DNA of 64,000 bases from Bifidobacterium asteroides (GTDB lineage Bacteria > Actinomycetota > Actinomycetes > Actinomycetales > Bifidobacteriaceae). A program made the position numbers and the translations under genes. Shown piece by piece: positions 490-61,656 of this stretch (positions are counted from its first letter, which is position 1; each line of letters begins with the position of its first letter). The notes under the pieces are model-generated. The model was not told the DNA's origin. It was given only the letters and a program-made list of their open reading frames with translations, and ran no database searches. The stretch covers positions 2,108,001-2,172,000 of the forward strand of contig NZ_CP048272.1 of assembly GCF_019469425.1 (NCBI RefSeq), given 5' to 3'.

Positions 490-1590
490 CTGGCATACTA
501 ATCGTTTACCGCCTCTGAAAAACGTTTCGCCATAGTATGCCTTGGAGATATGGTCACCGGAAAACGCGGCTGGCATAGACGCTGAAAATTATATTCCTGA
601 AATGCGGATCTGCGTTTTTCGAAGCCTGAGCCAGCACTTCATTGATCTTCTGCCCTCCGAAGTATGCAATGGGTTTGCCTTCACCGTCTTTGGCGGTGGT
701 TGAGTTCAGGAAATCCTTATCCGCCAGAGTCTTGTAGTCGGCCGGAAACGTTCCCGCGCCGACCCTTAGATTGATGGCGCCAAGGTCATGGGACGCATAT
801 TCTATGAACTTATAGGCAACGTCAGCTTTGGATGCCTTGTCGATCACCGCTAGGACGGAACCGCCATTCTCTGAATTGTGCTTCTCCCCTGCCTTTCAGA
901 CAGGCATGGGCACCACCCGCCATTCTCCGGCCGTCCGAGGAGCTGAGGACACAAGATTCGGCAGTATCCACGCTCAGCTGAGCAGGGCAGCCGTCGACCA
1001 GTCGCCAGGCTGTGATTCCATTCGTCGGACCAGACGGAAAGCTTCTTATCGACAAGATCCTCTCTGACATCTTCTGCCAGTAGTCGATAAACCTCTGGGT
1101 CCCCTTGTCGCCTGTCAGGTTGATGGTGACATTCCGCCCATCGTCTGAGGCGCTATAGGGGTAGCCTCCGAATGCCCGGATCATGGATTTGAAGAAGCCT
1201 GCATCGCCCGCGTCGGCCTCGATGTACGAACCAGCTGCTTTGGTCTTCCTGGCAGCTTCGTAATATTCATCCCAGGTCCTCGGAGGCTCCCCCACTCCCG
1301 CCCTGTCGAGAACCTCCTTGTTGCAGAACAGAGCCATTGGGCCGGGGTCCATGGGCAGACCGCAGATGCCGCCGCTGATGGCCTACGAAGACCAAGTGCC
1401 TCTGGCATAGTCCTTGCTGAGACCCTTTACATTTTTTTATCTGGTACTCAGGAAGGTCCTCGTAGCTGAATTGCGCGGCATCAGGCAAGCCGGAGCCTGC
1501 GGCAGCAGCGTTGTTCAGCGATTTGCACTGATCGTTGCCAACGACGGCTGCAGAGGTGCACTTTTAGCGGCCATGGCTCTCTTGAATGCG
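490..1590 (-). pseudogene. Decayed extracellular solute-binding protein (sugar ABC type)
   Basis: Pieces of one family 1 solute-binding protein lie in order but in different frames. An N-terminal fragment (about 1590-1425, CTSAAVVGNDQCK then DAAQFSYEDLPEYQ) leads to a middle piece (1352-1085, MDPGPMALFCNKEVLDRAG and PRTWDEYYEAARKTKAAG). A shifted segment follows (about 1085-850), where WSDEWNHSLATG and a GKWR-like motif can be traced. Next come a C-terminal piece (847-554, IDKASKADVAYKFIEYASHD) and a final shifted stretch (HISKAYYGETFF, about 552-500). At least four frame changes and no intact start make it non-functional. No permease genes remain beside it. Confidence 0.82.
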
Positions 1591-1767: not shown

Positions 1768-4700
1768 ATGCGTCAGCGTCCGAGCTTGGCGGCCGCCGCT
1801 CTGGCCATCCTCCTGGCCCTGTCCTGCGCTCCTGCCCTGGCCGGAGGATCCAGCAGCCCATCGGAAGCAGCCACACCCGCCACCCTGGAAAACGCCGGGA
1901 AGCAGGACCCCGAAGCCCCCCGCCCGGATAGCCGGCAGCCCGACGCCGCTGGCAGCACGCTGACCGCAGCCCCGTCATCATCCCCGCTGGCCACGTTCTC
2001 GCCCCTGAGCCACACGACCCTGACGCCTGCATCACCCACGCGCGGCACTTCCGGCGATGCTGCCACAGCCCAGGCCCGGTCCCCCGCAGTCCGGACGGTC
2101 AGCTTCGACACGGCAGGCGGCGGCAGCGTCGACCAGCAGACCATCCCCGACGGTGGCCAGGCCAGCCGGCCCAGCCCCGACCCGTCCAGGGGCGGGTATG
2201 CGTTCGACGGCTGGTTCCAAGGCGACATCGCCTACGACTTCACCCAGCCCGTCACCGGCAGCATCACCCTCACCGCCCGATGGACCAAGGCAGACACCCA
2301 GCACTGGGCCATCAGCCCCACCCAAGGGCCCGCAGCCGGAGGCGCCAATCTCACCCTCACCCCGCCAGCACAGCGCGGCATCAAATTCAGCCAGGCCAGC
2401 CTAGGCTACATGCATTCCGCGGCCATCGGATCCGACGGCAACCTCTACACCTGGGGATACAACGGCGAAGGCCAGCTGGGCGACGGCACCAACACCGACC
2501 GGACAAGGCCAGTCCAAGTTGAAAAGCCCCAAGGCGCACCCGACGGATTCACATGGACACAAGTCAGCCTAGGCGACTATTATTCTGTGGCCATGGGCTC
2601 GGACGGGCAGCTCTACGCCTGGGGAAGCAACAACTACGGCCAGCTGGGCGACGGCACCAACACCGACCGGACAAGGCCAGTCCAAGTTGAAAAGCCCCAA
2701 GGCACATCCGACGGGTTCACATGGAAACAAGTCGACATTGGCTGGTATCATTCCGCAGGCATCGGCTCGGACGGCAACCTGTACACCTGGGGATGGAACT
2801 ATTACGGCCAGCTGGGCGACGGCACCAACACCGACCGGAACACGCCGACCCTGGTCGGCAAACCCCAAGGCGCACCCGACGGATTCACCTGGACACAAGC
2901 CAGCCTAGGTGGCCGCCATTCCGGGGCCATAGGCTCGGACAACAACCTCTACACCTGGGGATGGAACAGCAATGGTCAGCTGGGCGACGGCACCACCACC
3001 GACCGAAACAGGCCGGGCGTGGTCGACAAGCCCCAAGGCGCACACGACGGATTCACCTGGACACAAGCCAGCCTAGGCGGCTGGCACTCTGCGGCCATGG
3101 GCTCCGATGGCCGCCTCTATGCTTGCGGATTGAACTTCAACGGGCAGCTGGGCGACGGCACCACCAACGACAGCTACAGGCCGGTCCAGGTCGTCAACCC
3201 CGCAGGCGCGCCAGCAGGGTTCACCTGGGAACAAGCCAGCCTAGGCAACTCTCATTCCTCAGCGTTCGGCTCGGACGGCCAGCTCTACACCTGGGGATGG
3301 AACCAGTACGGGCAGCTGGGCGACGGCACCACCAACGACAGGAGCACACCGACCCTGGTCGGCAAGCCCCAAGGCGCGCCCGCCGGGTTCACCTGGAAAT
3401 ACGCGATCCTAGGCAGGTATCATTCCGCAGCGTTCGGCTCGGACGGCAACCTGTACACCTGGGGCGAGAACAACCCTGGCCAGCTCGGACGTGACGTCAC
3501 CGAAGCCACGCCACAGGGCAGGCCGGGCGTGGTCGTCTTCCCTGGCGCCGCCACGCCCACCAGTGTCCTGTTCGGCCAGGCCAAGGCCACGGGGAGGATC
3601 ACGCCTAACCCTGACGGCACCTGGCAGGCGTCCACGCCCAAGCATGCCCCGGGGGCCGTGGACGTGACCGTCGTCTGGAACAGGAACGGGCCGCAGCCGG
3701 ACGCGCACCTGCAATACACGTTCATCGCCCCCGAACACCAGGTCGGCTTCACCTCCAAGGACAGCGCCTGCCCCGCCCCCACGGGCATGCCCCCCAGCCA
3801 GGCCGTCACCCAGGACGGGCAGGCGGAACGCCCCCAGCCGGACCCGAAAGCCGACGGCTGCCTGTTCGACGGCTGGTTCCAAGACAATGTGGCCTACGAC
3901 TTCACCCAGCCCGTTACCCATAACATCACCCTGACCGCCCGGTGGACCAGGACGGACACGCAGCACTGGACCATCAGCCCCGCCCAAGGACCCGAGGCCG
4001 GCGGCACCAAGGTCACCCTGACCCCGCCCACGCCGCGCGGCATCCGCTTCAGCCAGATAAGCCTCGGCAGCAGCCATTCCGCAGGCATCGGCTCCGACGG
4101 CAACCTGTACGCGTGGGGAAACAACAGCAGCGGCCAGCTGGGCGACGGCACCACCACCGACCAGAACAGGCCAGTCAAGGTCGGCAAGCCCCAAGGCGCG
4201 CCAGACGGATTCACCTGGAAACAGGTCAGCCTAGGCGGCTTTCATTCCGCGGCCATCGGATCCGACGGCAGCCTCTACACCTGGGGAAACAACAGCAGCG
4301 GCCAGCTGGGCGACGGCAGCACCACCACCACCAGCCGGAGCACGCCAGTCAAGGTCGGCAAGCCCCAAGGCGCTCCCGACGGATTCACCTGGACACAGGT
4401 CAGCCTGGGCGACCAGCATTCCGCGGCCATCGGATCCGACGGCAGCCTCTACACCTGGGGAAGGAACAACTACGGCCAGCTGGGCGACGGCAGCACCACC
4501 AGCAGCAGCACGCCAGTCAAGGTCGGCAAGCCCCAAGGCGCTCCCGACGGGTTCGCCTGGACGCAGGTCAGCCTGGGCGACCAGCATTCCGCGGCCATCG
4601 GCTCCGACGGCAACCTGTACACCTGGGGGTACAACTTCAACGGCCAGCTGGGCGACGGCACCACCAGCAGCCAGGCAAGGCCAGTCAAGGTCGGCAGGCC

Positions 4701-5556
4701 CCAAGGCGTTCCCGACGGGTTCGCCTGGACGCAGGTCAGCCTAGGCTTCAACCATTCCGCAGCTTTAGGCTCCGACGGCCAGCTCTACACCTGGGGAGGC
4801 AACCACTACGGCCAGCTGGGCGACGGCACCCAGGTCGACAAGCACACGCCGACCCAGGTCGGCAAGCCCCAAGGCGCGCCAGACGGATTCACCTGGAAAC
4901 AAGCCAGCCTAGGCAGGTGGTATTCCGCGGCGATCGGCTCCGACGGCAGCCTCTACACCTGGGGAAGCAACGGCGACGGCCAGCTGGGCGACGGCACCCA
5001 GGTCGACAAGCACACGCCGACCCAGGTCGGCAAGCCCCAAGGCGCGCCAGACGGATTCACCTGGAAACAGGCCAGCCTAGGCTTCAACCATTCCGCAGCA
5101 TTAGGCTCCGACGGCAGCCTCTACACCTGGGGATACAACTACTACGGCCAGCTGGGACGCGAACCCTCCAACGCCTGGCCGGCCAGCCGGCCAGGACCGG
5201 TCGGCTTCCCCGGAAAACCACAAGCCACCAGCATCTGCTTCGACCAGACCCGGTGGCGAGGCGCCTGCCTTGCCGCCGGCAAAAACCTGGCGCCCAACCC
5301 CGACGGCACCTGGAACGCCACCACGCCCGCCTACACGCCAGGCCCCGTCCCCGCAGCCATCGACTGGACCCAGGACGGCATACCACAGGAAACCGACACA
5401 AGCAACACCTACCGGTACCTGTCCATCGCCAGCCTGCCCCTGACCGGAGGAAACGGCATGCTCCTCCTGCTCGCCACAGGACTGCTCGCCGCAGGAGCCG
5501 CCGCAGCCGCCAAAAACCGACGACAACAAACCCAAACAAACACTTCACACGAGTAA
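1768..5556 (+). CDS. Sortase-anchored surface protein with two seven-repeat RCC1 propellers
   Basis: A secreted wall protein of 1262 residues. The ATG at 1768 is preferred: AGAGG lies just upstream and a signal peptide follows (MRQRPSLAAAALAILLALSC, cleavage after ALA near residue 25). Order of parts: Ser/Thr/Pro-rich linker; InlB-type B-repeat (about 110-172, ending TLTARW); a TIG/IPT-like start (ISPTQGPAAGG); seven RCC1 repeats (about 200-577, each with a SLG..HSAAIGSDG core and W/C-G-x-N-x-x-GQLGDGT); a TIG-like end (ASTPKHAPGAVDVTV); then the same module again (InlB about 657-730, seven repeats about 759-1131). It closes with LPLTG (1223-1227), a hydrophobic helix and a basic tail, so a class A/D-type sortase should attach it. 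Seven RCC1 repeats normally make one closed beta-propeller, so two are predicted. Ligand unknown; adhesion is an inference. Confidence 0.9.
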   Translation: MRQRPSLAAAALAILLALSCAPALAGGSSSPSEAATPATLENAGKQDPEAPRPDSRQPDAAGSTLTAAPSSSPLATFSPLSHTTLTPASPTRGTSGDAATAQARSPAVRTVSFDTAGGGSVDQQTIPDGGQASRPSPDPSRGGYAFDGWFQGDIAYDFTQPVTGSITLTARWTKADTQHWAISPTQGPAAGGANLTLTPPAQRGIKFSQASLGYMHSAAIGSDGNLYTWGYNGEGQLGDGTNTDRTRPVQVEKPQGAPDGFTWTQVSLGDYYSVAMGSDGQLYAWGSNNYGQLGDGTNTDRTRPVQVEKPQGTSDGFTWKQVDIGWYHSAGIGSDGNLYTWGWNYYGQLGDGTNTDRNTPTLVGKPQGAPDGFTWTQASLGGRHSGAIGSDNNLYTWGWNSNGQLGDGTTTDRNRPGVVDKPQGAHDGFTWTQASLGGWHSAAMGSDGRLYACGLNFNGQLGDGTTNDSYRPVQVVNPAGAPAGFTWEQASLGNSHSSAFGSDGQLYTWGWNQYGQLGDGTTNDRSTPTLVGKPQGAPAGFTWKYAILGRYHSAAFGSDGNLYTWGENNPGQLGRDVTEATPQGRPGVVVFPGAATPTSVLFGQAKATGRITPNPDGTWQASTPKHAPGAVDVTVVWNRNGPQPDAHLQYTFIAPEHQVGFTSKDSACPAPTGMPPSQAVTQDGQAERPQPDPKADGCLFDGWFQDNVAYDFTQPVTHNITLTARWTRTDTQHWTISPAQGPEAGGTKVTLTPPTPRGIRFSQISLGSSHSAGIGSDGNLYAWGNNSSGQLGDGTTTDQNRPVKVGKPQGAPDGFTWKQVSLGGFHSAAIGSDGSLYTWGNNSSGQLGDGSTTTTSRSTPVKVGKPQGAPDGFTWTQVSLGDQHSAAIGSDGSLYTWGRNNYGQLGDGSTTSSSTPVKVGKPQGAPDGFAWTQVSLGDQHSAAIGSDGNLYTWGYNFNGQLGDGTTSSQARPVKVGRPQGVPDGFAWTQVSLGFNHSAALGSDGQLYTWGGNHYGQLGDGTQVDKHTPTQVGKPQGAPDGFTWKQASLGRWYSAAIGSDGSLYTWGSNGDGQLGDGTQVDKHTPTQVGKPQGAPDGFTWKQASLGFNHSAALGSDGSLYTWGYNYYGQLGREPSNAWPASRPGPVGFPGKPQATSICFDQTRWRGACLAAGKNLAPNPDGTWNATTPAYTPGPVPAAIDWTQDGIPQETDTSNTYRYLSIASLPLTGGNGMLLLLATGLLAAGAAAAAKNRRQQTQTNTSHE

Positions 5557-6064: not shown

Positions 6065-9000
6065 TCACGCCCGCAGTCGTCTGACTGCCCACATGGCCAG
6101 TTTGCGCAGCTCAGAAGCGACCAGGACCAGAGAGGCCAGCACGATGCATTCCAGCCAGGCCTGGGGCCGGAGGGGGACAGTCCCGAAGGCCTCGCCCAGG
6201 AAAGGCAGATAGACCACAGCCATCTGCAAAAGGATGGAGACGCCGATGGCGCCCCAGAGCCAGAGATTGCCGAACAGGCCCAGGAAAGCCGATCTCCGGG
6301 ATGAGCGTGAGGCCAGCGCGTTGAACAGCTGGGCGAAGACCAGGATCGTGAAGCCCATGGTCCGCGCCTCACGCATCTGCGCCTCATGGCCGATCGCCTG
6401 GACCGACCTGTCAGTGAAGAGACCGCCACTCAAATGCATGTCCATGCCAATCAGGGTCACCAAGGCCATGACCAGGCCGATATAGACGATGTCGACCCAC
6501 ATGTTCCGGTCAATCACCCGGTCGTCGATGGACCGGGGCGGACGGCCCATCAGATCGTCGCTCTGCGGGTCCACTCCCATGGCCAGGGCGGGAGCCGCAT
6601 CGGTCAGAAGGTTGATCCAGAGCAGCTGAGTGGCCAGGAGCGGCACGGTCACGCCCGCCACACCGGGCTGCGATATGCCCAGAAGACCCGCAAAAACCAC
6701 GCCCCCGAAGACCGTGAAAACCTCGCCCATGTTGGAGCTGAGCAGGTAGCGCAGGAACTTGCGGATGTTGTCGAATATGCCCCGGCCCTCTCGTACAGCC
6801 TGGACGATGGTGGCGAAATTGTCGTCCGCCAGAATCATCTTGGCCGACTCCTTGGTGACCTCGGTCCCGGTGATGCCCATGGCCACGCCGATGTCCGCAG
6901 CCTTTACAGCAGGGGCGTCGTTGACGCCGTCGCCGGTCATGGCCACGACCTTGTCCTGGTCCTGAAGCGATTCGACGATCTTCAGCTTGTGCTCGGGGGC
7001 CACGCGAGCGTAGACGGAGACCTTGGAGGTGGTCTCCCGAAGCTGGTCCGCATCCATGGCATCCAGCTGCTCGCCGGTGCAGGCGGGGCCGCCGGGTTCG
7101 GTGATGCCCAGGTCACCCGCGATCCTGGCCGCAGTGAGTGGATGGTCGCCAGTGATCATGATCGTTCTGATGCCGGCACTGTGAGCCTGAGCCACAGCCT
7201 GGCGGACCTCAGTCCGAGGCGGATCGATGATGCCGACCATGCCCGCCCAGATCAAATCGCTTTCCAAATGGGCGCTCTCCTGGAATACCTTGTCCGCAGA
7301 CAGGAGAACTGCGGAAGCACGCTGAGTCTCCTTAGACAAACGGTCCGTCTGGCCTGTCCCAATCGTGCTTGACGGCCTCTCCCCCTCGTCATCTTCGGTC
7401 AGGGACGACAGTTCCTGACCGGATACAGGCCGGAAAGCCTGTCCTAGAGTCCTGTAGGCATCGCCGGACAGATGGCTGACCTGGGCGAGTATCCTCTCCC
7501 GATCAGCGCTAGTCATAGGCCTGACCTGGCCGTCTTCGAGAATCCGGTCGCACCGGCCGAGCAGCACATCGGGAGCACCCTTGCAGAAGAGGCGCGATTG
7601 CCCTTCGCTGCCGTCACGCGGAGCGGCCAGGACCGACATGAGCTTGCGCTCGGACGTGAAAGGAATCTCAGCCAAACGACGGTAGCCGTCAGCCTTGGCA
7701 TCAGCGCCGACTTTGCGAGCGGCGACAATCAGAGAGACCTCCGTGGGATCGCCGACGCTCTGCCAGTGACCCTGCCCGGATCCAGACTGGGCCTGGGAAT
7801 CAGGTTCGGCCTCGACCGGCTGCCAATGCAGGTCTCCGTCGTTGGCGATGGCCCCGACCATCAGGGTCTCTTCCACTGCCTCAGCCAGAGATGAACCAAT
7901 GGTATCTGTCAGTTGTTGATCATCTGACCCACTGGCCTCGACCGGCTGCATGGTTCCCTCCGGAGCGTACCCGGTGCCAGTGAGCCTGACCTGCCCCGAG
8001 GGGACGACCACCCGTTCAACGGTCATTTCATTACGTGTAAGAGTTCCTGTCTTGTCGGAGCAGATGACTGATGCCGATCCCAGGGTCTCCACCGAGCTGA
8101 GCTTCTTGACGATGGCATGATGCTTGGCCATGCGCTGCACGCCCAGGGCGAGAACCACAGTCAGGATGGCCGTCAGCCCCTCCGGCACAGCAGCTACGGC
8201 CAGGGATACGGCCATGAGCAGGGAATCAATCAGATCCTGGGTTGTCTGAAAGCCTTCCATCAGGGCCAAAGCAGCCAAAACCAGGGCGGCAATCAAGCAG
8301 ACGGCCAGTCCGAGGAGCTTGGAGACGCGGGCCATCTCCTTCTGTAGGGGCGTGGGTTCCTCCTGGGTATCAGCCAGCATGTCGGCGATCTTCCCGACCT
8401 GGGTGTCCATACCAGTAGAGGTGACGATCATGCGCCCGTTCCCCTGGGTCACTGCGGTGCCGTTGAAGACCATGTTGGTTCTGTCGCCCAGAGCCTTGGG
8501 CTGGTCAAGCCGACCGGGCCGCTTGCCCACCGGCAGCGACTCGCCGGTCAGCGATGCCTCGGCCACGCGCAGACCTGCGGCCTGGAACAGTCTTCCGTCG
8601 GCGCCGACCGAATCGCCTTCAGCCAGGACTACTACATCACCAGGCACGATCCTGCTGGTCTCCAGGCTGACCACCCGGCCGCCTCGCAGCACCGAGGCGT
8701 GCGGGGCCGTCATGCTCGCCAGAGCATCCACAGCCCGCTCGGCCTTAGCCTCCTGAGCGTACCCCAGGGCGGCATTAAGGATGAGGATGATCATGATGAC
8801 GATGGCATCAAAGGGCAGGGGCTCTCCGCCTCCTGATGCCGGATGTGAGCGTTCCACCACCCAGGCCACCAACGAAATGGCCGTGGCTGCCAGAAGCAGA
8901 TAGACCAAGGGGTCCTTGAACTGTTGAAGGAACTTCCTCCATCCAGGAACGGGAGGCGCTCCAGCCAGCTCATTAGGACCGAACCTGTCCAGCCGACGCG

Positions 9001-9196
9001 CCGCCTCGGCCTCATCCAGGCCCCGGTCGGGGTCAACATTCAGGGCAAGGGCAACCTGATCGACACCTACTATAGAAGGGTCCTTGAGGACGGGGCCATT
9101 CACGCTGCGCCTCTGCTCATGGCCCCGCCCTCCAGCCGGGATCACGCCGGTATCTGTCGATTGCTCATGCTTGGGGTCGCTGGTCAACCCAGTCAT
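6065..9196 (-). CDS. P2-type cation-transporting ATPase (calcium-pump-like)
   Basis: A membrane pump of 1043 residues that drives cation export by ATP hydrolysis. The ATG at 9196 has AGGAGAG four bases upstream; a longer TTG start at 9229 lacks one. All landmarks are present: actuator loop TGES (about residue 218), PEGL in transmembrane helix 4 (about 338), phosphorylation motif DKTGTLT (about 381), hinge TGDGVNDAP, and NLLTDAAPALAMG in helix 6, which fits P2A calcium pumps better than copper or potassium pumps. The C-terminal half has six further membrane segments. It is monocistronic, with a long AT-rich gap upstream. Calcium is the best guess, but P2 pumps for sodium or manganese look similar. 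Confidence 0.9.
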   Translation of the reverse strand: MTGLTSDPKHEQSTDTGVIPAGGRGHEQRRSVNGPVLKDPSIVGVDQVALALNVDPDRGLDEAEAARRLDRFGPNELAGAPPVPGWRKFLQQFKDPLVYLLLAATAISLVAWVVERSHPASGGGEPLPFDAIVIMIILILNAALGYAQEAKAERAVDALASMTAPHASVLRGGRVVSLETSRIVPGDVVVLAEGDSVGADGRLFQAAGLRVAEASLTGESLPVGKRPGRLDQPKALGDRTNMVFNGTAVTQGNGRMIVTSTGMDTQVGKIADMLADTQEEPTPLQKEMARVSKLLGLAVCLIAALVLAALALMEGFQTTQDLIDSLLMAVSLAVAAVPEGLTAILTVVLALGVQRMAKHHAIVKKLSSVETLGSASVICSDKTGTLTRNEMTVERVVVPSGQVRLTGTGYAPEGTMQPVEASGSDDQQLTDTIGSSLAEAVEETLMVGAIANDGDLHWQPVEAEPDSQAQSGSGQGHWQSVGDPTEVSLIVAARKVGADAKADGYRRLAEIPFTSERKLMSVLAAPRDGSEGQSRLFCKGAPDVLLGRCDRILEDGQVRPMTSADRERILAQVSHLSGDAYRTLGQAFRPVSGQELSSLTEDDEGERPSSTIGTGQTDRLSKETQRASAVLLSADKVFQESAHLESDLIWAGMVGIIDPPRTEVRQAVAQAHSAGIRTIMITGDHPLTAARIAGDLGITEPGGPACTGEQLDAMDADQLRETTSKVSVYARVAPEHKLKIVESLQDQDKVVAMTGDGVNDAPAVKAADIGVAMGITGTEVTKESAKMILADDNFATIVQAVREGRGIFDNIRKFLRYLLSSNMGEVFTVFGGVVFAGLLGISQPGVAGVTVPLLATQLLWINLLTDAAPALAMGVDPQSDDLMGRPPRSIDDRVIDRNMWVDIVYIGLVMALVTLIGMDMHLSGGLFTDRSVQAIGHEAQMREARTMGFTILVFAQLFNALASRSSRRSAFLGLFGNLWLWGAIGVSILLQMAVVYLPFLGEAFGTVPLRPQAWLECIVLASLVLVASELRKLAMWAVRRLRA

Positions 9197-10293
9197 GCCA
9201 CTCTCCTGCTTATGCCACGGAGTAGTCAACGCTTCAGAGGCCCGTTAAAAGAAATCAGAAGCGGCCAGACCAAAACGTTGCGTGGATGCTTGCCAAGTTG
9301 AATTTATAATATACATAAACACGGCCGAAGTCGTCAAGGCCTTCGTCCCAAGGCAAAGCAATCGCATTACGCGACGATGATATCTGTACAAAAACAAGTC
9401 TATCGGACGTGGGCTTGCAGGCTAAATTAACTACGGTAAATCTACTTATTGCGCAACATGGGCACGAACTGTCGGCTATGCTTCAGAGCATTTTCATAAG
9501 TATAATTCAATATATAGTCAGACGGAATAAACAGTAAGCGAATAAGGCCGCCTACTCCTTGCCGAACCACAGACTTCTTTTTACCAAACCCGAACAGCTT
9601 AAATTGTCTTGCATATATAAGCTGAACTTTCACACATGCAACAATGCACAATTGTGTAAGGTGACCCTAGAAACATTGTTTGTTTAGCCTCGTTGCTGAC
9701 TTGATGATATGCTACCCAACGCAATACCTGCACCACGCGTGGAAACCTAAATACAAACACTCCAAGCCCTTACTGAAATAAGGGGTCTATAAGCACTTTT
9801 TGCATAGCACCCCGTCAGAAGCATGGTGCAGACCAGTTTAACTAGAGTCTGTATTTCGTATAGTAAGATTATAATGTCCACTTTTTTGCAAAGCTATAAT
9901 ATTAGGCTTCCCCATGTGTAATTAGATATAGCGAGAGCAAAACTTAAAAGACTCGGTATTATGACAAACTGTCGCGCAGTTTATTCATTATCTCATTTAT
10001 TAGCAAATATCTCTTTCCAATAAGATTCACAAGTTTTAATTTGTTAGTATTGTTTTCTAATCACTTACGAACTTAGAACTTATCGAGCTTATATACTCAG
10101 AATGTCTAACATCAGTTAAGATATATTTATATATATATTTCTATATTACAAATGCTTCCTGCTGGGAGAAGCAAACATTTAGGAAGAGCCAGTATCATTA
10201 ATATAATCTACACAACACTGTTTCTCGCGAAAAATCGCTTTACTTTTCATTATTGTGCTAGCATGAAAAAAATAAGGGAAGGCGCCAGAACTT
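9197..10293. other. AT-rich intergenic DNA at the left end of a foreign island
   Basis: About 1.1 kb of strikingly AT-rich sequence compared with the GC-rich neighbours. Only short, unconvincing reading frames occur, the longest being 69 codons on the minus strand (9651-9442), rich in Lys, Arg and Tyr and of no family I recognise. The part next to 10294 is the likely promoter region of the RloA/RloB pair. No transposase, tRNA or clear attachment repeat was seen. Confidence 0.6.
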
Positions 10294-11604
10294 ATGTTAA
10301 TCAGCTTCAGCGTAGCAAATTATGGCTCAATTAAGGAAAAGCAAATCCTTTCTTTAAGGCGATATCAAAGCGGCATGGAAAGTCGTATTGTAATTGATGA
10401 CGAACTAGCCGGTAATGATATTTCCCCAGTTGCAGTGATATACGGCGCGAATGCATCAGGAAAATCTACTTTCCTCCATGCTCTTTCTTTCGTCAAAAAA
10501 CTAGTTTCGACATCCGCTCTAAGGCCTGTTGGGCAGCCTATCCGCGTCCCGTTCTTCGCTTTATCAGAGCAAACAAGGTCAGAGCCTTTTCGGACTGAAA
10601 TCGTATTTACAACAGCTAAATCAGAATATAGTTATAGATTCGAAATTAACCGCAAAGGCAACGTGTCCAACGAGGAGCTATTACGAATAAATCCTGCTGG
10701 AAAACGAAGATCAATTCAGACAATCTTTTCCAGACAAACAGAGAAAGGACAGCGCGACATAATCAAAACTTCGTCGTATATGCATGGAGCAAAAAAACAT
10801 ATAGTCGATAGTACAAGGCCAAATTCACTCTTCCTTTCTAAAGCAGCTCAAGAGAATAATAAAGATATTTTAGATGCGTATGAATGGTTTGTACCACCAG
10901 AAGATAGCCAGGTCAAGGCCATCGATACGCCTAGTCTGAGCGTTGCTCTATTTGAGAACGATAAGGAATTCCAAAAATGGGTATTACAACTAATAAAAAA
11001 ATCTGATTTAGGCATCGGCAATATCGAAATAATACCACCAACAACAAATCCACCAAAAGAATTAGTAAAATTATATAAGATGATGAATGAGAGCGACAAC
11101 AAGCAACAAGATGATGCAACAATAAATAAACTGCTTAGGATGAACAGGCATCCGGCCTTATATCATTACGGCGAACAATCTAAATCCGTCCGCCTGGATT
11201 GGCATTATGAGTCTGCTGGAACTTTAAGTTTGTGGGACCTCGCAGGAGGCTTATACACCTGCCTAAAAAAGGGATTGCCTTTCTGGATAGACGAATTGTC
11301 TGACTTGCATCCTGCCTTAATGCGCCAGCTCGTATATATCTTTCAGTCTAAACGATCCAATCCGAACAACGCTCAAATTTTATTTACGACTCACGATATA
11401 AGTCTACTTGGAAATTTCGGCGGACTAGGATACGCATTAGACAGGGATCAAATATGGTTTACTGAGAAAGATGCCAACGGAGCTACCAGCCTATACCCGC
11501 TGACTGACTTTGATCCGAGACGAGATGCAAATACAGAAAAAATGTATATTGGTGGGCGCTTTGGAGCTGTACCCCTGATCGACGATTTGCCTACCTTTGC
11601 GTAA
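10294..11604 (+). CDS. RloA/AbiLi-like AAA ATPase, phage-defence type
   Basis: A 436-residue ATPase of the SMC-like group typified by RloA/AbiLi. The N-terminus MLISFSVANYGSIKEKQ is the family's usual beginning. Walker A is GANASGKST (about residue 51-59). Near the C-terminus WIDEL gives the Walker B acidic pair, and TTHD is the switch histidine motif. Between them lies a long variable insert. It is followed 17 nt downstream by a RloB-like gene, the standard pairing, in which the ATPase is thought to control a Toprim-like effector and cause abortive infection. Base composition is far more AT-rich than the chromosome, supporting horizontal gain. The assignment to defence is from family knowledge; the trigger is unknown. 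Confidence 0.85.
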   Translation: MLISFSVANYGSIKEKQILSLRRYQSGMESRIVIDDELAGNDISPVAVIYGANASGKSTFLHALSFVKKLVSTSALRPVGQPIRVPFFALSEQTRSEPFRTEIVFTTAKSEYSYRFEINRKGNVSNEELLRINPAGKRRSIQTIFSRQTEKGQRDIIKTSSYMHGAKKHIVDSTRPNSLFLSKAAQENNKDILDAYEWFVPPEDSQVKAIDTPSLSVALFENDKEFQKWVLQLIKKSDLGIGNIEIIPPTTNPPKELVKLYKMMNESDNKQQDDATINKLLRMNRHPALYHYGEQSKSVRLDWHYESAGTLSLWDLAGGLYTCLKKGLPFWIDELSDLHPALMRQLVYIFQSKRSNPNNAQILFTTHDISLLGNFGGLGYALDRDQIWFTEKDANGATSLYPLTDFDPRRDANTEKMYIGGRFGAVPLIDDLPTFA

Positions 11605-11621
11605 TAAGCGATAATTCAACT

Positions 11622-12290
11622 ATGCAGGCCAGGAAGAGGAGATTCGACTCTACAAGAAGAAGCAGAAAACGGAAACCGGCGTCGCGTATCTTTGTAGCGT
11701 GTGAAGGACAAACGGAGCGTGCTTATTTTCGATATTTAAATACTGAATTACGAACATCTGGCATCCAGATAAAACCTTATTCTGATAAATCAGATCCAAG
11801 TGAAGTCGTAGAAGAAGCAATAAAGGCAAATAGAGGGGACCTACATAAAGGCGTGGATGAAGGCTACTACGACGAGGTTTGGGCAGTATTCGATTGGGAC
11901 GGTAGAACGGAACAGGTTAGAAAAGCCAAACACCTTGCAAAGAAAAATCGCGTCCACGTTGCGCTGTCAAATCCAGCATTTGAACTATGGCTGGTGTGGC
12001 ATTTCCTTGATTACATGAACCCTTCATGCGACCAAAAGGAGACGTTAAAAGAATTACAAAAAGTGTGGCCAAATTATAAAAAAGGCATGGACATAGATTT
12101 CACAACACTACCTCCACATAGTTGCAACGATGCTCGCTCTAGATCCCAGAACGCCAGAAAAGCGCATAAGCAGCATAGATGTTATTTCCCGAACAATAGA
12201 CCATCTACTGATATCGACTTGTTAATTGAATACCTGATATCTGCATGGAAAGACTGGCATGGGAATTCTTCCATCTGCCCTATCCTATAA
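11622..12290 (+). CDS. rloB: RloB-like (AbiLii) effector protein
   Basis: A 222-residue protein of the RloB family. A basic N-terminus (RKRRFDSTRRSRKRK) precedes FVACEGQTERAYFRYL, whose glutamate is the first conserved acidic residue of the Toprim-like fold. VWAVFDWDG supplies the DxD-type acidic motif, and SNPAFELWLVWHF is the family's most conserved block. It forms an operon with the upstream ATPase, with no strong ribosome site visible before the ATG, so translation may be coupled. RloB is the presumed nuclease or effector of the pair. It shares the AT-rich composition of the island. Confidence 0.85.
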   Translation: MQARKRRFDSTRRSRKRKPASRIFVACEGQTERAYFRYLNTELRTSGIQIKPYSDKSDPSEVVEEAIKANRGDLHKGVDEGYYDEVWAVFDWDGRTEQVRKAKHLAKKNRVHVALSNPAFELWLVWHFLDYMNPSCDQKETLKELQKVWPNYKKGMDIDFTTLPPHSCNDARSRSQNARKAHKQHRCYFPNNRPSTDIDLLIEYLISAWKDWHGNSSICPIL

Positions 12291-59732: not shown

Positions 59733-59906
59733 CAGTCGCTGCCTTCTTTCCGAGAAAACCACGCCCATCCTAACGCGGTCAACCGGCGCTGCCAGGATCA
59801 CCCAGCACGGCCACGGACCTTGCAGATTTACCTATCGATCATTGAAGGCACGGCAACCGTTTGGGCCTTGTCTGAGAATTCCTCTATGCTTGCCCATAAT
59901 TGCAAA

Positions 59907-60087
59907 GCCACTGAAGAGGTCGCCGAACCTATCAGTAACCGGGAACAGACAGTGCGGTGTCGTGCATTCCCGGCGAAAGGAAGTCCGGCCGAAATGGTTC
60001 GGATCCGCCCATCCGAACCGTTGGGCCCGGGTCGAACAGGTCCGGGACTGTCGCAACCCGATGTTGCGGAGCGCTATGTGCAGTGTC
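59907..60087 (+). ncRNA. Lysine riboswitch (L-box) upstream of lysP
   Basis: About 181 nt with the L-box landmarks in order. P1 pairs CACTG (59909-59913) with CAGTG (60081-60085). AGAGG (59915) and AGTA (59934) form the loop-E side. P2 pairs CCGGGAA (59939-59945) with TTCCCGG (59967-59973). GCGAAAGG and GGCCGAA follow. P3 is GGTTCGGAT/ATCCGAACC (59996-60019), then TTGGGC. P4 is CCCGG/CCGGG, then the conserved CTGTC (60048). P5 is CGCAAC/GTTGCG, and GGAGCGCTA (60068-60076) closes the core. Downstream, CGGAACTGACC (60121-60131) can pair with GGTCAGTCCG next to the ribosome site, or be freed by a TTCCGC/GCGGAA stem, which suggests translational control. Confidence 0.85.
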
Positions 60088-60180: not shown

Positions 60181-61656
60181 ATGGCGACCAGGCAGAGCAG
60201 GAAGGGCGGCCCCTCAGCATCCACCGACCGGGTCCAACGCAACCTCAAGACCCGGCACGTCTCCATGATCGCCTTGGGCGGCTGCATCGGCACAGGGCTG
60301 TTCATGACATCCGGCTCCACCATCGCCAAGGCCGGGCCGGGAGGCGCGTTGGTGGCCTACATAGCCATGGGCGTCATGGTCTACTTCCTGATGACCAGCC
60401 TGGGCGAGCTGGCCACCCACCTGCCCACCTCCGGTTCTTTCGCCGCCTACAGCGCCCGCTACGTGGATCCGGCCCTGGGCTTCGCCATGGGCTGGAACTA
60501 CTGGCTGAACTGGGCCATTACCGTAGCTGTCGACGTCTCCACCGCCGCCCTGCTGATCCAGTACTGGCTGCCCCATACCCCCGGATGGATCTGGAGCCTG
60601 CTGGTCCTGGTCATCGTCTTCCTGATCAACGCCCTGACCGTATCGACCTTCGGCGAGACCGAATTCTGGCTCTCGCTGATCAAGGTGGTGACGGTGATTG
60701 TCTTCCTGGTCATCGGCATGGCCATGATCTGCGGGATCATGTTCCAGCCGGCGGTCGGGTTGAAGAACTTCACCTACAAGGATGCCCCCTTCGTAGGAGG
60801 GTTCCCCGCTATTCTCAACGTCTTCCTGATTGCGGGCTTCTCCTTCCAAGGCACCGAGCTGATCGGCGTCACGGCTGGCGAGTCCGAAAATCCAAGCAAG
60901 GCGGTTCCCAAGGCCATCAACGACGTCTTCTGGCGGATCCTGCTCTTCTACGTGCTGTCCATCTTCGTCATCGCCGCACTGATCCCCTACACCAGCCCCA
61001 ACCTGCTGAGTTCCGCCATGGGGGACATCGCCATGTCGCCCTTCACCCTGGTCTTCCAGCGGGCAGGCCTGGCCTCGGCAGCCAGCGTCATGAACGCCAT
61101 CATCCTGACCTCGGTCCTCTCGTCCGCCAACTCGGGGGTCTACGCCTCCACCCGGATGCTCTACGCCCTTGCCAAGGATCATTACGCCCCGGTCGTCTTC
61201 GGCCACACCACCCGACACGGCATCCCCATGACCTCGCTGATTGCCACGCTGGTGGTCTCCCTGACCGCCTTCGCCTCCAGCATCTTCGGTCAGCGGATCT
61301 ACATGTGGCTGGTAGCCGCCTCGGGACTGACCGGATTCATCGCCTGGATCGGCATCGCCCTGAGCCACTACCGCTTCCGCCGCGCCTGGGCGGTCCAGGG
61401 CCGCCGGGTTGAGGAACTGAGCTACCATGCCAGGCTCTTCCCCCTAGGGCCCATCCTGGCCCTGGCCCTATGCGTCATCGTCATTGGCGGGCAGAACATC
61501 GAAGCCTTCGCCACCTGGAATTGGCAGGAGATCGGTGTCACCTACATAAGCGTGCCGCTGGTATTAGCGCTTTATTTTGGCTACAAGATCCGGCACCACA
61601 CCCGGATCGTGCCTCTGGAGGCGATGGATTTGAGCGGAGTTCAGAAATCATTATGA
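60181..61656 (+). CDS. lysP: Lysine-type amino acid permease
   Basis: A 491-residue, 12-helix permease close in pattern to LysP: LKTRHVSMIALGGCIGTGLF, AGPGGALVAYIAMGVMVYFL, MTSLGELATHLPTSGSFAAY and GFAMGWNYWLNWAITVAVD follow the LysP order. ESENPSKAVPKAINDVFWR is the central loop. GAGGAAAAGAG lies just before the ATG and can be masked by the leader described above. Control by a lysine riboswitch supports lysine as substrate. It has a tandem paralogue 203 nt downstream. Confidence 0.92.
   Translation: MATRQSRKGGPSASTDRVQRNLKTRHVSMIALGGCIGTGLFMTSGSTIAKAGPGGALVAYIAMGVMVYFLMTSLGELATHLPTSGSFAAYSARYVDPALGFAMGWNYWLNWAITVAVDVSTAALLIQYWLPHTPGWIWSLLVLVIVFLINALTVSTFGETEFWLSLIKVVTVIVFLVIGMAMICGIMFQPAVGLKNFTYKDAPFVGGFPAILNVFLIAGFSFQGTELIGVTAGESENPSKAVPKAINDVFWRILLFYVLSIFVIAALIPYTSPNLLSSAMGDIAMSPFTLVFQRAGLASAASVMNAIILTSVLSSANSGVYASTRMLYALAKDHYAPVVFGHTTRHGIPMTSLIATLVVSLTAFASSIFGQRIYMWLVAASGLTGFIAWIGIALSHYRFRRAWAVQGRRVEELSYHARLFPLGPILALALCVIVIGGQNIEAFATWNWQEIGVTYISVPLVLALYFGYKIRHHTRIVPLEAMDLSGVQKSL

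Follow-up and report, generated by a model that had tools for sequence, protein, structure and literature searches.

Gene and protein organisation

The window analysed is a 64,000-nucleotide stretch of the Bifidobacterium asteroides genome (assembly GCF_019469425.1), which consists of a single 2.23 Mb contig (NZ_CP048272.1; positions 2,108,001 to 2,172,000, forward strand). Near its start lies a gene for a surface protein in which two propellers of RCC1 repeats each appear to be inserted into a small immunoglobulin-like domain of the TIG type. The open reading frame was as described in a first-pass annotation of the sequence (i.e. ATG at 1768, stop at 5556, 1262 amino acids), and the gene has the following features.

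1768..5556, +: gene for the 1262-residue surface protein (ATG at 1768, stop at 5556)
1768..1842, +: probable signal peptide, residues 1-25, judged from sequence alone
2095..2277, +: InlB-type (Flg_new, PF09479) repeat 1, residues 110-170
2299..2367, +: predicted first part of TIG domain 1 (strands A, A', B), residues 178-200
2374..3543, +: predicted seven-bladed RCC1 propeller 1, residues 203-592
3553..3762, +: predicted second part of TIG domain 1 (strands C-G), residues 596-665
3772..3960, +: InlB-type repeat 2, second of two Flg_new stretches (approximate limits, read from the sequence)
3961..4029, +: predicted first part of TIG domain 2, residues 732-754
4036..5217, +: RCC1 block 2, seven repeats by sequence
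5218..5424, +: predicted second part of TIG domain 2, residues 1151-1219 (this flank type folds in the model of a relic copy)
5434..5556, +: sortase signal by sequence, with LPLTG motif, hydrophobic stretch and basic tail (weak PF00746 match)

A low-complexity stretch separates the probable signal peptide from the first InlB-type repeat, after which the order InlB-type repeat, TIG start, seven RCC1 repeats and TIG end occurs twice, followed by the LPLTG tail. Pfam searches detected 14 RCC1 repeats and two Flg_new stretches, both families being above their cut-offs. The Flg_new model scored 72.4 bits (cut-off 27) and the NCBIfam List_Bact_rpt model (i.e. TIGR02543) 33.8 bits (cut-off 20.95), in agreement with the earlier proposal that an InlB repeat opens each half. 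Exactly seven RCC1 repeats were counted in both blocks, as previously claimed, with a spacing of mostly 168 bases and identities between repeats of up to 89%. Features of a sortase substrate (i.e. LPLTG, a hydrophobic stretch and KNRR) can be read directly from the protein; the PF00746 anchor model reached 12.4 bits of a required 20, and the tail match to NF033902 (17.1 bits) was well short of the cut-off of 95.

The closest protein was 91% identical and is encoded by Bifidobacterium sp. B4142, with further relatives on contigs named B. asteroides, B. apousia, B. mellis and B. polysaccharolyticum. These four species occur in honeybees. The annotation had regarded RCC1 repeats on a sortase-anchored protein as uncommon, a view contradicted by a published and strongly expanded family in bee bifidobacteria: 19 copies of RCC1-repeat surface proteins are reported for B. 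asteroides PRL2011 (PMC3447821) and 7-24 RCC1-repeat genes per genome for bee bifidobacteria (PMC4449606). The portions of these papers considered here, from 2012 and 2015 respectively, describe proteins with 2-4 RCC1 domains of about seven repeats each, together with Flg_new, LPxTG, clusters in tandem and diversification. The window protein has in common with this family a Flg_new stretch before each RCC1 domain, about seven repeats, an LPxTG motif and multiple copies. Neither a TIG domain nor nesting is mentioned in those portions (i.e. of the main text of PMC4449606 and of PMC3447821), and searches of the open-licence PMC literature, judged from titles and the starts of abstracts, yielded no description of an RCC1 propeller set within a TIG domain. 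The protein is a fresh member of an already described family, and the TIG nesting appears to be undescribed.

Identity of the flanks as parts of a TIG domain

The N flank carries the TIG motif P..GP..GG and covers positions 2-22 of the TIG profile. N and C flanks match complementary portions of that profile, and C parts in relatives pass the Pfam TIG cut-off. In a profile-profile comparison using hhalign, the joined flanks of 89 units matched TIG (PF01833) with a probability of 95.5 and covered profile positions 2-80. A TIG model built solely from other groups of the phylum was applied to 313 blocks of the family, which include those of the window and many of which are mutually related. At a threshold of 5 bits or more, 132 N flanks and 198 C flanks were detected, as compared to 2 and 1, respectively, of 313 shuffled sequences. 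Unsplit TIGs (i.e. 'empty' domains with both parts contiguous) occur within the same protein family. The limits proposed earlier for the TIG parts were borne out: the starts lie at residues 178-200 and 732-754, the ends at 596-662 and 1151-1228.

Structure predictions agreed with this assignment. Half 1 was modelled as a closed seven-bladed propeller, and closure of the second propeller is indicated by its repeat count, seven being the number named in the annotation as needed for a closed propeller. In the half-1 model, the strands of the N and C flanks were found with high confidence at the places expected for TIG, and in none of the predicted models did the flanks fold as separate domains. 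Blade 1 was predicted to comprise strands A (102-107), B (111-116), C (121-125) and D (140-145) in the numbering of the model, with a short last D strand (482-483). A fold search with this model returned propellers only, a result that speaks neither for nor against TIG in that model; UVR8 was the closest solved structure to the propeller. A short natural copy with nearly the same flanks (i.e. the relic L029) was predicted to adopt a TIG fold. The top Foldseek row for the relic was an axonemal repeat unit (E 0.0026) and TIG domains came next. Alignments of at least 80 residues were obtained with IPT domains from plexin A1, Met, EBF3, NF-kB p65 and CAMTA1.

Several results weigh against nesting or do not bear it out. 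The whole genome of the window lacks a Pfam TIG match at E values up to 0.01, and the native protein scored 10.1 bits with PF01833 (residues 181-198, profile 5-22), below the cut-off of 20.9. The expectation that the flanks would join into one TIG match upon removal of the propeller held for hhalign; with Pfam, the joined flanks of half 1 reached 17.2 bits, again below the cut-off, and those of half 2 gave no match. Among 30 units taken as every third row of the 89-unit alignment (i.e. A1), TIG was matched at E values up to 1 by 20 joined and also by 20 order-reversed flanks. As reversed flanks score as often as joined ones, this count indicates TIG-like pieces and not that the pieces join. 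Mean-field direct coupling analysis between the halves (303 pairs, effective number about 118) found inter-half pairs to be under-represented at the top. The relic is probably a pseudogene, its match to the protein start being in a different frame. With these points set against the profile-profile and structure tests, which supported the earlier suggestion of a propeller nested in a TIG fold, it is very likely from the models that the two flanks together form one TIG domain carrying the propeller as an insert. Its placement in the B-C loop of the TIG domain is supported.

Distribution and size of the inserts

Both TIG halves were detected around 13 of 13 propeller blocks found in the genome of the window, using models partly trained on these genes; the 13 start junctions were also recovered in the junction search described below. 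Stretches fetched from the genus contained 336 blocks, of which 19 were dropped from the repeat count as cut by the end of a stretch. The repeat model found exactly seven RCC1 repeats in 242 of the 317 whole blocks and a single detectable repeat in 34 of the remainder. Inspection of three such loci (i.e. L099, L062 and L118) revealed diverged propellers between TIG halves; in these and others the first propeller is strongly diverged, with inserts of mostly 290-301 amino acids. One block of this class (L010, the relic L029) truly has one repeat, and another (L116) is what closes a frame that is interrupted. When the threshold for the N part was set permissively, 303 pairs of N and C flanks were found, separated by 336-470 residues in 271 cases, by 280-307 in 25 and by just above this in one. 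The six short inserts measured 10, 58, 114, 237, 239 and 246 residues; those of 58 and 114 are two short copies in the genome of the window, and the 10-residue one belongs to an empty TIG in L049.

The junction of TIG start and repeat (i.e. alignment A5, 62 positions) was matched in 22 of 27 genomes of the genus, with the whole junction covered in at least 20. The match in one genome (G009) was limited to the repeat part, yet a C half follows; in another (G006) it spanned 2-62 and the C half scored 70.7 bits, the N model alone having missed the start. Nesting was also found in two genomes of another genus of the same family (G416 and G397), where the N half of G397 and of one G416 block was recognised by eye while the N model was silent. 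One candidate (G161) was rejected: its A5 match spanned 5-60, yet the sequence is without a TIG start, so that a long A5 match alone is no proof. Of 295 other genomes sampled from the phylum, none had the junction at E values up to 1e-8, up to 21 candidates being scored in each, and the matches listed for them begin at position 10 or later; RCC1 repeats were present in 42. Two loci (L281 in G445 and L282 in G447) have RCC1 blocks inside other surface-protein-like sequence, possibly another Ig-like domain; three flank pieces of G445 gave no Pfam match above cut-off (one scored 11.4 bits). Most propeller units examined in the expanded surface family appear to be nested two-domain devices.

Many paralogs are present per genome, in neighbouring clusters. 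The two short copies in the genome of the window, L028 (C1:2190000-2194000) and L029 (C1:2207500-2211500), lie about 19 and 37 kb past the window end and have two and one RCC1 repeats, respectively, each between TIG flanks. From its sequence, L029 looks like the footprint of a recombination that joined the first repeat of half 1 in frame to the seventh repeat of half 2. A further locus (L026, C1:325000-334500) has two frames, of 717 and 1685 amino acids, that probably derive from one gene with four propellers; a similarly matching frame in B4142 (G025:C11) has 2289 amino acids, so a longer copy of this type exists. In-frame stops among the matches listed were all TAG (10 stops in nine rows, e.g. 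L040, G010:C8, G011:C7, G018 and G019:C2), and may reflect pseudogenes, matches overrunning gene ends or something else.

Loop variability and possible function

In the arrangement proposed for each half, an InlB-type spacer would precede a TIG (IPT) domain in which a whole, closed RCC1 propeller of seven blades takes the place of the B-C loop; sortase would attach the protein to the cell wall. The chain would enter the propeller ahead of strand A of blade 1 and exit behind strand D of blade 7, so that both TIG connections would lie on the D-A side. From this topology, the TIG pedestal, which probably keeps the propeller at a distance from the cell, would sit on the face of the D-to-A loops, with the A-B and C-D loops facing away. 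The outward face may bind a ligand such as a glycan of the host or of plants, mucin or a different microbe, and what is bound would vary as units are duplicated and recombined. As a whole, this explanation (i.e. a nested unit with an outward binding face, diversified by duplication and recombination) was judged the best, with a probability of roughly 0.8. Its reading as an adhesin or receptor derives from the wall anchoring, the family expansion and the pattern of variability; a binding role is slightly favoured on these sequence features, and confidence in any particular ligand is low.

Variability was examined in 135 repeats of the close clade, with the B4142 ortholog counted twice (L011 and L030). 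Five loop positions had entropies of 2.9-3.4 bits, two after the G in LGxxHS and three in WGxNxxG. Four of these exceeded every other column and the fifth (2.89 bits) was surpassed by a C-D loop column (2.94 bits). The variable A-B pair aligns with the W-R of the UVR8 motif GWRHT, which provides the tryptophans of the interface pyramid in UVR8 (PMC4501546). The ratio of non-synonymous to synonymous substitution rates (dN/dS) relative to the B4142 ortholog was 1.54 for the variable positions as compared to 0.55 for the propeller frame, 0.76 for TIG and 0.34 for InlB; variable positions and frame differed similarly for G008 (1.84 versus 0.44) and G018 (1.36 versus 0.45).

Other observations caution against a strong claim of this kind. 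Entropies above 2 bits were also seen in six of the 43 other columns, including one in the D-A loop (2.78), and the contrast between faces was modest over 84 disjoint pairs family-wide (232 of 251 blocks usable, loops taken from predicted strands). The dN/dS at variable positions was 0.37 between G008 and G004, and no amino-acid change occurred at these positions between G020 and G018 or between G004 and G020. The dN/dS classes were picked post hoc, after the variability had been seen, and synonymous changes were few. We read these data as a binding face that is occasionally changed and otherwise kept; one-face variability gives weak sequence-based support for such a face.

The paralogs in neighbouring clusters, the apparent recombination footprint and the variable loops would also fit a decoy or coat evading phages or antibodies, in which recombination varies the units and thereby deprives phages or host factors of their target. 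Most units, however, retain an insert of seven-blade length, and the lack of amino-acid change at the variable positions between G004, G018 and G020 fits a kept specificity better than constant escape, leaving this explanation unlikely. Less probable still, at about the level of an outside chance, are three consecutive modules, with an N flank that is a mere linker, an independent propeller and a C flank that forms a separate domain. Pfam scores of C flanks in relatives are independent of the N flank and would suit such a layout, as would an oral saccharibacterium (TM7 oral taxon 350, L021) in which an RCC1 block precedes a TIG C half (33 bits) and a TIG start could not be recognised. Against it stand the P..GP..GG motif and the 2-22 profile match of the N flank, its prediction as strands (predicted local distance difference test score about 96-98), the contiguous parts in empty TIGs, and the relic alignment of at least 80 residues, which exceeds the 70 offered by the C flank alone (74 to the end of the model). 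That the propeller senses light as UVR8 does, or serves for dimerisation, in place of binding a ligand is highly improbable, as the nearest solved structure and GWxH-like motifs in some blades are offset by variation of the Trp and Arg positions of GWRHT across blades and relatives, and the cell-wall protein of a gut symbiont is an unlikely site for UV-B sensing.

The proposed nested unit can be compared with known systems. To our knowledge, the propellers of UVR8, RCC1 and BLIP-II are not carried within a TIG domain, and the window propeller differs from them in being, by its signals, secreted and wall-anchored. The pedestal fold resembles the IPT/TIG domains of plexin, Met, EBF, NF-kB and CGTase, which are continuous, whereas in the window protein strand B is separated from strand C by an insert of about 390 residues. 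Among adhesins, one domain is likewise nested within a loop of another in the hybrid/I-like domain of integrin beta, the pilus tip RrgA and Vibrio Bap1/RbmC; different domains are involved and no homology is claimed. A TIG with a propeller-bearing B-C loop might tentatively be viewed as a modular display scaffold, in which the pedestal is fixed and the propeller is recombined and diversified, giving bee-gut bifidobacteria a large evolving set of binding surfaces like repeat and antibody scaffolds elsewhere; the loop may also lack a propeller, so that empty pedestals occur within the same protein. Members of the family that have such pedestals offer a natural comparison, and the construct to express would be the whole TIG-propeller unit rather than the RCC1 repeats alone. 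Nesting predicts which propeller face binds and marks the protein as a candidate for host or niche attachment in the bee microbiome. Pfam annotation overlooks the split domain.

Other features of the window

Upstream of the surface-protein gene, 554-1352 (-) is a probable remnant of a sugar-binding ABC transporter protein, with SBP_bac_1 on 825-1352; the adjoining frame at 557-847 had no Pfam match. A stretch of low GC content at 9000-12000 (37-46% as compared to 55-69% in the first 9.5 kb) was perhaps acquired and contains an open reading frame at 10294-11604 (+) for an AAA ATPase that is AbiEii/AAA_21-like. A lysine riboswitch (110.8 bits) was detected at 59906-60084 (+), upstream of a 491-amino-acid open reading frame at 60181.
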